Assembly: GCA_025526935.1 (NCBI GenBank)
Contig: JAHLKD010000013.1
Span: forward strand, 434,001 to 498,000
Direction: 5' to 3'
Length of the DNA: 64,000 nt
Source: Cladochytrium replicatum
Lineage: Eukaryota; Chytridiomycota; Chytridiomycetes; Cladochytriales; Cladochytriaceae
A program made the translations under genes and the position numbers. Position 1 is the stretch's first letter. Each line of letters opens with the position of its first letter. Under the pieces are notes generated by a model. That model saw only the letters and a program-made list of their open reading frames with translations, was not told where the DNA came from and did no database searches. Below, piece after piece: positions 3,412 to 6,144 of the stretch.

Positions 3412-6144
3412 CTAGTAGCGACGAGACTGGTAAGGTTGGAACGACCTGGAGCCTCCACCTCCACCCCCGTAGCTGTTGCGAGAAGGTCCGCCCGAACCAC
3501 CTCCGCGTCCACCTCCATAACGGGGGTTTGACACTATAAACGTAACAATCCCAATTAGAATCATCCAACATAACCTTTAACCTTACTCCGAAACTTACTT
3601 CTGCTTCCGCCAGCCGCTCTTGAAAACTCACGGAGACGCGGATCCACCTCCTGTTTGGCTTCTTCAAGAATCTCGATGAGCGATTTGGCCATCTTGTAGT
3701 TGTCTGCTGTAAAGAACGTGTACGCTGTACCGGTGGCACCGGCACGCCCAGTTCGTCCGATACGGTGGACATAATCTAAAGTTATTGATTGTTAACAAAA
3801 ACTAAACATAAGTGGCGGATGTTTATGTACCTTCAATGTTGTTCGGCAAGTCGTAGTTGATCACAACCTAAATTCGCAAACATTAGGAACCATTAAATGT
3901 TGCATTGATGAAAAGCTTACCCTGATGTCTTTCACGTCTGGAAAAACAGCAACCGGATCCCAAAAGTTAACACAGAAAATGTTAGAATGCTGCTGAAATT
4001 CACTAGAGAAAACGGTGCATGGTCATGCAGCGAGCGCGGGTAAGCTTCAGCTCCAGCTTGATCACTGGTATGTGGGACTTGGGACTATCGTTCTCTGTTT
4101 CTGCCACTACCTCGGCAATGGGATCTCCAGGGCATCGTAGGACAAGCAAGACCAAGAGATACGAACAAGTCGTTCTCCTTTTTGGGTTGAAAACAGTCTT
4201 TATTTTTTGGGGCGCGGAGTAAAATGAATAACGAAGACACTGGGCCTAGGAATGCTTTCGCAAACCCTAAGGCCTGTGGAAGATGGAAATGTGCCTACTG
4301 TCGTGGTGCCCAACAGATACCAGGCACAAACTTCCGCAACGGCTGTAGACACAGCCGAATTGGAAGCAGAAGAAGAATGGGAAGGTGGAAGCCGCGCAAG
4401 ACTGTTTTCAATCACCCATACTTACCTTGGTCTGTCTGGTCGAAATAAAATGCCCTTAAGATGAGAAACAGAGAAGGACGACAGATACTTGCAGCAAGCA
4501 GCTGACATCTGTCGCTCACTTGCCTCCATATCTTTCCCGGCTGCCCATACATTTTCTTTGACACGACTGTCACCAAACGCTCTCCCGTGACCCAAAAACG
4601 AAAGAAACGAAGGGTATACATTACCGAGTCCACGAGCAGCAACGTCAGTTGCAATCAATATAGGGTGTTTTCCTTGCTTGAATTCGTTCATGACCCAATC
4701 ACGTTCCTGCTGCTTTTTGTCACCGTGAATGGCAAGTGCGGAGAAGTTGCTCTGCCGAAGGTGATGAGTGATTTCATCGGCGGTACGCTTGGTTCCAGTG
4801 AAAATAATAACTTTCGCATCTCGGTCCTCCAAAGACTTCTCAAGGAGTCGCACCAGTCTAAACAGGCGAATTAGGAGAGCACAAATAGAAGTACTGATGT
4901 AGTTACACCAACCTGCTTCGCTTTTCCGTTTCAACCAGAATTTCGATAACTTGGCGAACATTGTGACTGGCCGAAAGTTCGAGTGACCCGATGTTCACTT
5001 GAATGTAGTCCTTCAAATAATCACGAGCAAGAGCCTGCACTTCTTTTGGCCATGTTGCAGACCACATGAGAGTTTGGCGATCAGGGCGGATCTAGAAAGA
5101 GGTTGTTCAGATGCATAAATAAGCCAAAAAGTTCTAAGGCACACCTGATCAACAATCTTTCGGATTTGCGGCTCGAAACCCATGTCCAACATGCGGTCAG
5201 CTTCGTCCATAACCAAGTAAGTGACTCGCTTGAGGTTGGTTTTGCCGGATTCCAACATGTCGATCAACCGACCAGGAGTCGCAATAACGATTTCAACCCC
5301 TCGCTGAAGCTCACGGATTTGTTGACCTCGTGGAACACCTCCATACAAGCAGCAGTTCTTGATGCGAGACGAAGCACCGAACTTGTTGCACTCTTGCTGA
5401 ATCTGGAGAGCCAATTCTCGGGTTGGCGCCAGAATCAAGACAATAGGGCCATCTACTCCCGGTTGAAGGAGAGGTTGTGCATTGATGTGGACAACCGATG
5501 GAAGGCAGTAAGCCAGAGTTTTTCCCGAACCAGTTTCTGCGATTCCGACAAGGTCACGACCGGAAAGCGCCATTGGCCACCCTTGAGCCTGGATGGCAGT
5601 GGGGGCTTTGAATCCAGCAGCGAAAATTTCCTTCAGCACGTAGCTCGGGAAAGAGGCTTGTTCAAAGGTCTCTACAGGCTTGGGAATGTCGTTGCCGAAT
5701 ACACGGATGTCGTGCTTACGCCTGAAGTCTTCAACTTGGTGGGTGCTCTGAGATGTGACTTCTGGATGCTCCCGATAAAAGTTTTTCTCGAATGCAGGAA
5801 GGTTGGGGAGTTCCTTAGCCCAATCAGGCTTACGTAAGCTGGCACCAAGACCGCTCATTCGATCACCTCCGTAACCCCCACCACCACCACCGTAGCCGCC
5901 GCCTCCGTAGCTTCCTCCGCCCCCGCTACCATAAGAAGAGCCACCGTAGCCTCCTCCTCCGCCGCCTCCATATGAAGACCCACCATAGCCGCCAGAACTC
6001 CTTTTTTGTGAAAGATTTATCAGAATGTTGGATGAGTTACAAGTAGTGAGACAAATACCTGTCCCTTCCTGTGCCGGAATCGCGTTCACGGTACGAAGAG
6101 GACGACGGAGGGCCGTACGAGTTGGAATTATACTGAGAACCCAT
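3412..6144 (-). CDS. DBP2: DEAD-box RNA helicase, DBP2/DDX5 family
   Basis: ATP-dependent RNA helicase of the DBP2/DDX5 group, which acts in mRNP assembly, rRNA processing and RNA quality control. Exons by eye (gene order): 6144-6059, 6000-5145, 5091-4913, 4857-4625, 3937-3921, 3867-3831, 3775-3599, 3533-3412. They sum to 1707 nt, exactly 568 codons plus TAG. All motifs are present: Q motif (GFKAPTAIQ), I (AETGSGKT), Ia (PTRELALQ), Ib (TPGRLID), II (DEAD), III (SATW), V (TDVAARGLD), VI (HRIGRTGR). The N-terminus holds a Gly/Tyr/Ser-rich tract and the C-terminus an RGG/Gly-rich tail, both typical RNA-binding ends. Most introns are 53-65 nt, but the one after ARGL is 687 nt (4624-3938). A large intron in the same part of the gene is known in yeast DBP2 and human p68, where it mediates autoregulation. 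Divergent from RFC1. Confidence 0.95.
4426..4454 (-). other. Candidate 29-nt poison exon inside the large DBP2 intron
   Basis: Within the 687-nt intron a 29-nt segment is preceded by a pyrimidine-rich tract ending TCATCTTAAG and followed by the strong donor GTAAGTATGG. If included between exons 4 and 5 it shifts the frame: the upstream G plus 29 nt reads nine further codons, after which exon 5 reads ACG TGA, an immediate stop. Skipping restores LDVKDIR. The same 29 nt, with three transitions, survives in the DBP2 relic at 1366-1394, although its splice sites there are lost. It is not proven to be spliced in. Confidence 0.5.

Follow-up and report, generated by a model that had tools for sequence, protein, structure and literature searches.

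The closest described systems are the DBP2/DDX5 genes themselves (the papers cited here and below are drawn on in excerpt). In yeasts, splicing of the dbp2/DBP2 intron is poor and has been tied to negative control, and the position of this intron is conserved among yeast and p68 genes (PMC4695336). Autoregulation of yeast DBP2 is credited there to Barta and Iggo 1995; a helicase-dead mutant relieves intron retention in S. cerevisiae DBP2, S. pombe dbp2 is kept low via its intron 2 (Kilchert 2015), and the factors restraining S. pombe dbp2 splicing are given as not known in that excerpt (PMC4695336). A first-pass annotation of the DNA analyzed here had stated that the yeast DBP2 intron mediates autoregulation, which is borne out as far as poor splicing and negative control in yeasts are concerned (PMC4695336). 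The gene that we describe in Cladochytrium replicatum resembles the yeast genes, S. pombe dbp2 with its intron 2 included, in being the same gene with a large late intron and an inferred negative control. It differs in that the mode described in yeasts is retention, involving Mmi1 and the exosome in S. pombe, whereas here the intron contains a microexon candidate whose own splice sites lie in a predicted duplex. In human cells, Ddx5 lowers Ddx17 and itself through nonsense-mediated decay (NMD), and this suppression of Ddx5 and Ddx17 needs ATP binding, not ATP hydrolysis or helicase activity (PMC3763533).

Other systems share single features with this locus. Human DDX5 (p68), the Dbp2 orthologue, unwinds in vitro a stem-loop, rasISS1, at the stop-containing alternative IDX exon of H-Ras, but there it acts in trans on another gene and lowers inclusion, which is the opposite sign (PMC2491553). 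The poison exons of SR genes (Lareau and Brenner 2015, PMC4379411) and of Smndc1 (PMC11357089) are likewise conserved non-coding exons that bring a frameshift or stop, lie in genes of RNA-binding proteins and are expected to lead to NMD, the exon being a candidate in our case; in the excerpt on SR genes, however, the fungal SRSF5 orthologue relies on intron retention and has no poison cassette exon. In vertebrate BRD2 and BRD3, intronic base pairing controls an unproductive exon as well, but the structures flank that exon (PMC11632617), whereas here the duplex takes in the acceptor and the exon themselves as arms, in a gene that codes for a helicase. Finally, the OGT decoy exon also places exon-like sites within a long intron, whose retention they may promote, yet it is about 150 nt long with multiple weak sites (PMC12017769), as against 29 nt, a strong donor and a masked acceptor here. 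Poison exons, structure-controlled unproductive splicing and autoregulation through a DBP2 intron are thus all known kinds. In the literature searched, we found neither their combination, with a duplex that encloses the acceptor itself in the gene of a helicase, nor a paper in which a poison exon and DBP2 are named together.

The window, the stretch of 64,000 nucleotides analyzed here, is part of contig C13 of the 50.5 Mb C. replicatum genome. Its positions 7-46460 and 61073-64000 align to G000:C15 360639-421045 with 69-89% identity (36.4 kb in 35 pieces, more than half of the window), and UPF1, UPF3, Mago and YTH-domain proteins each have matches at two loci, with one more locus for YTH. This alignment and these paired loci point to an old duplication of the whole C. 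replicatum genome, or else to its origin as a hybrid.

DBP2 is read on the minus strand, from an ATG at 6144 to a stop codon ending at 3412, and its introns measure 58, 53, 55, 687, 53, 55 and 65 nt in order. The unusually large late intron reported by the first-pass annotation is therefore real: intron 4, within ARGLD, has 687 nt against 53-65 nt for the six others. Donors were scored as the number of positions agreeing with the familiar 11-position U1 consensus, and the authentic donor of intron 4, with 5/11, is the weakest among the seven of the gene. A CUAAC lies at intron index 639. The coordinates of all features are collected in Table 1.

Table 1. Features of DBP2 and of its fourth intron, in window positions.
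Feature	Position	Strand	Remarks
DBP2, DDX5/p68-type DEAD-box helicase, 8 exons, 568 aa	3412..6144	-	from splice sites and paralogue alignment
Intron 4, 687 nt	3938..4624	-	authentic donor GTAATG, acceptor TTTTCCAG; splits the Asp codon of ARGLD
Poison microexon candidate, 29 nt, GGCATTTTATTTCGACCAGACAGACCAAG	4426..4454	-	27/29 in paralogue; inclusion predicted to lead to TGA in both copies
Polypyrimidine tract and AAG acceptor of microexon	4455..4475	-	GAG in paralogue; among the least accessible AG regions of the intron
Microexon donor GTAAGTATGGG	4415..4425	-	open; unchanged in paralogue
Likely branch site of authentic acceptor, TTCTAACATTTTCTG	3973..3987	-	identical in paralogue (alignment)
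Helix 1, 5' arm, 12 nt, polypyrimidine tract	4464..4475	-	pairs with 4102-4091
Helix 1, 3' arm, AGAAACAGAGAA	4091..4102	-	pairs with 4475-4464
Helix 2, 5' arm, acceptor AG and first exon bases	4449..4462	-	pairs with 4136-4123
Helix 2, 3' arm, GATGCCCTGGAGAT	4123..4136	-	pairs with 4462-4449
Helices 3 and 4, 5' arms, second half of microexon to first donor base	4425..4441	-	pair with 4146-4141 and 4157-4149
Helices 3 and 4, 3' arms, CTTGTC and TCTTGGTCT	4141..4157	-	
Helices 5 and 6, 5' arms, TTGAAAACAGTCTTGCGCG, behind donor	4393..4411	-	
Helices 5 and 6, 3' arms, 4200-4187 and 4216-4212	4187..4216	-	
Helix 9, local hairpin between 3' arms of helices 1 and 2	4104..4121	-	7 pairs

We also looked at database protein models. 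Among the 120 best of 7979 protein matches, both C. replicatum models of DBP2 (P0002, from the window, and P0003, from the copy on C15) run into intron 4 and stop there, and therefore lack the last helicase motifs. P0002 is 100% identical to the DBP2 query over 79%, up to intron 4, and ends exactly at the TAA inside the microexon donor. As deposited, the two models represent truncated enzymes. In P0115, a DBP2 model of Rhizophlyctis rosea, residues DVKDI give way to an extra stretch right at the ARGL junction. This is a hint of faulty annotation, or of alternative splicing at the corresponding site, in a second chytrid.

Inside intron 4, the segment 4454-4426 is preceded by TTCTCTGTTTCTCATCTTAAG and followed by GTAAGTATGG. 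The first-pass annotation had proposed it as a poison exon, and the coordinates, the splice signals and the stop before motif VI that it gave are all correct; what it missed is the RNA structure in which the segment lies. The predicted inclusion product reads GGG, nine codons, ACG and TGA and would have 462 residues, ending before HRIGRTGR; in both copies of the gene, the TGA follows 11 codons on from the split codon, a premature stop as in poison exons. As the conserved Asp-Val-Lys codons fix this TGA, it is the same in both copies, and the conserved frame leading to it is weak evidence either way. Moreover, inclusion of the microexon, use of its donor as an alternative donor and retention of the intron each lead to an early stop in both copies.

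The splice signals of the segment are unequal. Its donor agrees with U1 at 10/11 positions, compared to 5/11 for the authentic donor, in both copies. The tract before its AG has 16/18 pyrimidines and is the richest among the AGs scored in either intron (those from intron base 23 onward). Any donor with at least 10/11 arose in 7/2000 dinucleotide shuffles of the window intron and 2/2000 of the paralogous one, and one preceded, 15-60 nt upstream, by a pyrimidine-rich acceptor in 1/2000 and 0/2000, respectively. The intron thus holds an exon-like pair of acceptor and donor, of which the acceptor is the weaker half, with AAG in the window and GAG in the paralogue; a GAG acceptor is normally poor. 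No YTRAY branch-site motif was found upstream of the microexon in either copy, and a CTCAT was seen by eye just before its AG.

A second, diverged DBP2 lies on contig C15, with an intron 4 of 701 nt that carries the same segment in the same frame with the same TGA. The two copies have the same residue in 538 of 565 aligned codons, with a dS of 0.69 (NG86) or 0.54 (YN00), and 171 of 280 fourfold sites are identical. Mismatch phase proved too crude a criterion for telling coding from non-coding among the 175 identity runs that lie between collinear blocks, and conservation was therefore judged only against the short introns of the gene and the fourfold sites. Over aligned positions, the six short introns are 51, 53, 65, 64, 56 and 52% identical and intron 4 is 79% identical; with gap columns included, the short introns reach 48, 52, 59, 54, 55 and 40% and intron 4 reaches 74%. 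The identity of intron 4 is a mosaic, with 19/20 identical columns in the tract and acceptor, 27/29 in the microexon, 31/34 behind the donor and 114/143 in the distal region that holds the 3' arms, compared to 67-71% elsewhere. With this one paralogue, the microexon is therefore conserved beyond the neutral expectation set by the short introns and fourfold sites. As a sequence feature, the conserved element of intron 4 is real. Two more identical blocks of 15 nt, CCAAGTCCCACATAC (4082-4068) and TGATCAAGCTGGAGC (4064-4050), lie just 3' of the structure and are kept between the copies without a partner in its core.

Both introns are predicted to fold strongly. RNAfold z-scores against dinucleotide shuffles were -7.5 for the window intron and -5.2 for the paralogous one (20 shuffles each), and -6.6 for the window core (100 shuffles). 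RNAalifold gave -118.8 kcal/mol for the core, compared to a mean of -62.8 (sd 5.3) and a best of -74.7 in column shuffles, which preserve conservation classes but not dinucleotides; 0/100 reached the real value. In both copies, the tract and acceptor of the microexon are predicted to pair with a strand about 360 nt downstream, helix 2 having 13 pairs with 4457 unpaired. When the copies were folded separately, 60/63 window core pairs could form in the paralogue and 60/62 in the reverse direction, counting pairs of each copy's own best fold with letters in both. With the downstream intron shuffled 300 times per copy, the perfect helix on the tract (12 bp in the window, 11 bp in the paralogue) and that behind the donor (14 and 13 bp) were each reached in 0/300 shuffles of either copy, while that on the exon end was equalled in 8/300 and 20/300. 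Both copies thus share a predicted long-range pairing at and around the exon, as in structure-controlled unproductive exons, and strands with no evident splice signal of their own are kept where their partner is a splice signal.

All 76 core pairs hold in both copies, with 5 one-sided changes; helix 9 has two one-sided exchanges (U-A/U-G) that preserve the pairs. As the 5 changes are all one-sided, with 0 compensatory changes among the 76 core pairs of the two copies of this one genome, the pairing is unproven by covariation. RNAalifold of the whole intron gave 7 pairs altered on both sides, none of them within the core. Over the whole intron, 165/207 pairs were kept compared to a random-substitution mean of 152.1 (sd 5.2; reached in 8/1000), and 151/189 compared to 136.9 (sd 5.2; 2/1000) in the reverse direction. 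Paired positions carried slightly fewer substitutions than unpaired ones, with 79/418 and 64/254 (p 0.065) and, in reverse, 70/393 and 73/279 (p 0.010). By columns, with gaps taken as differences, 5/152 paired and 75/241 unpaired differ, a comparison biased by the choice of the structure on the same alignment. Pairing over the whole intron is only moderately favoured, and the strong signal is that of the core.

The predicted structure would act very unequally on the two splice sites of the microexon. Opening its acceptor region would cost 21.7 kcal/mol in the window (rank 1 of 46 AGs) and 18.5 in the paralogue (rank 4 of 34), compared to 10.0 and 5.6 kcal/mol for the authentic acceptor (21-nt acceptor regions forced open in the intron with 60 nt of exon on each side); its mean unpaired probability is the second-lowest of the 46 AGs in the window and the lowest of the 34 in the paralogue. 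Opening the donor would cost only 1.1 and 1.7 kcal/mol. The donor being open, the idea that both sites of the microexon are masked was dropped.

Our first choice, which we prefer tentatively and judge close to evenly balanced, is that intron 4 is a structure-gated switch for unproductive splicing, in which unwinding opens the way to cassette inclusion. With the duplex closed, the microexon would be skipped and the 687-nt intron removed productively. With the duplex opened, or not yet formed during transcription, the acceptor would become usable and the 29 nt would be included, leading to the TGA at the next junction, truncation before motif VI, mRNA decay and lowered DBP2. The 3' arms are transcribed about 360 nt later than the acceptor, so that transcription speed could also influence the outcome. 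The genome has the NMD genes UPF1, UPF3 and Mago, so decay of the early-stop products is possible. The opener of the duplex could be Dbp2, an RNA-unwinding helicase, or the product of the paralogue, which would close a negative feedback. We infer both the cassette inclusion of the poison microexon and the helicase feedback by Dbp2. The literature supports this indirectly, through the helicase-dead mutant of S. cerevisiae, the intron 2 of S. pombe dbp2, the lowering of Ddx17 and Ddx5 by human Ddx5 and the unwinding of the H-Ras stem-loop by p68. In detail, two of these would cut the other way, as p68 lowers inclusion in H-Ras and the human Ddx5 effect depends on ATP binding and not on helicase activity.

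The poison-exon reading of the first-pass annotation is strengthened by the conservation of the 29 nt in the paralogue, which answers one half of the refutation that it had set itself, and weakened by the acceptor, which is locked in the predicted duplex and reads GAG in the paralogue. Given such an acceptor, use of the segment as a decoy, or intron retention, is a serious rival, possible if on the unlikely side. The open internal donor (10/11 to U1) would capture U1 and compete with the weak authentic donor (5/11), so that intron 4 would be retained or exon 4 extended by 199 nt and the microexon only rarely spliced in; DBP2 would go down as in the switch, by retention or an alternative donor. 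In agreement with this, P0002 and P0003 run into intron 4, the former stopping at the TAA of the microexon donor, though both may only reflect gene callers avoiding a 687-nt intron. Decoy exons have been described in long retained introns of human cells (PMC12017769), but the OGT decoy has weak sites in that excerpt and the microexon donor is strong. In S. pombe dbp2 the mode described is retention, and the same paper cites retention for S. cerevisiae (PMC4695336). The pyrimidine tract and its AG have been kept, which speaks against a decoy, although the helix alone could explain it. A decay-promoting intron of the Mmi1 type was rejected, as UNAAAC is absent from both introns, though the genome has YTH-domain loci. 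Between them, the microexon and decoy readings make it probable that the intron 4 element serves unproductive splicing of DBP2.

Alternatively, the structure might only aid splicing by folding the long intron away so that the weak authentic sites meet, with the exon-like segment as a by-product. The strong fold in both copies fits this, as does a stem of the window in which intron bases 83-89 pair with a stretch immediately before the acceptor (4542-4536 with 3957-3951), at a pair probability of 0.99. However, this stem has a probability of 0.0 in the paralogue folded alone, and a stem closing the whole intron was therefore ruled out as a common feature. Moreover, such an aid leaves the near-perfect conserved donor unexplained, and the conserved frame to the TGA, set by the Asp-Val-Lys codons, weighs little on either side. 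We consider this explanation unlikely.

Less probable still is an intron-borne non-coding RNA or small-RNA precursor, such as a snoRNA or a Dicer substrate, with splice-like signals arisen by chance. The long paired arms and the 17 exon-level Piwi-domain matches in the genome would suit it. Against it, Rfam gave no family at gathering score in the window, which disposed of a snoRNA or other known RNA; the only match in the intron was to a hairpin ribozyme on the other strand, with 18.7 bits and E 0.56 against a gathering score of 65. Searching the genome with the intron, with the best candidates scored, gave no place besides the two DBP2 loci, which also led us to reject a mobile inverted repeat, and the conserved blocks contain the 11-nt donor. 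A neutral leftover of recent duplication or gene conversion, suggested by the two copies lying within one genome, is hardly credible and already disfavoured by the mosaic pattern of the sequence, as synonymous sites and the six short introns have widely diverged and the blocks of intron 4 have not, while conversion should have evened out the neighbouring exons as well.

The element of intron 4 speaks to the question of how DBP2/DDX5 genes limit themselves through a large intron. Under the preferred reading, a structure-gated switch, it would bring structure-controlled poison exons to an early-diverging fungus. A further step, which we regard as doubtful, is that the intron is a helicase sensor, in which unwinding activity would be read out as unproductive splicing of the gene's own mRNA and that of its paralogue; if true, a duplex would lock the acceptor of a poison microexon in the very gene of a helicase able to melt it. 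The hidden acceptor and the open, strong donor form a concrete element, accessible to mutation, through which splicing output could be coupled to helicase activity.
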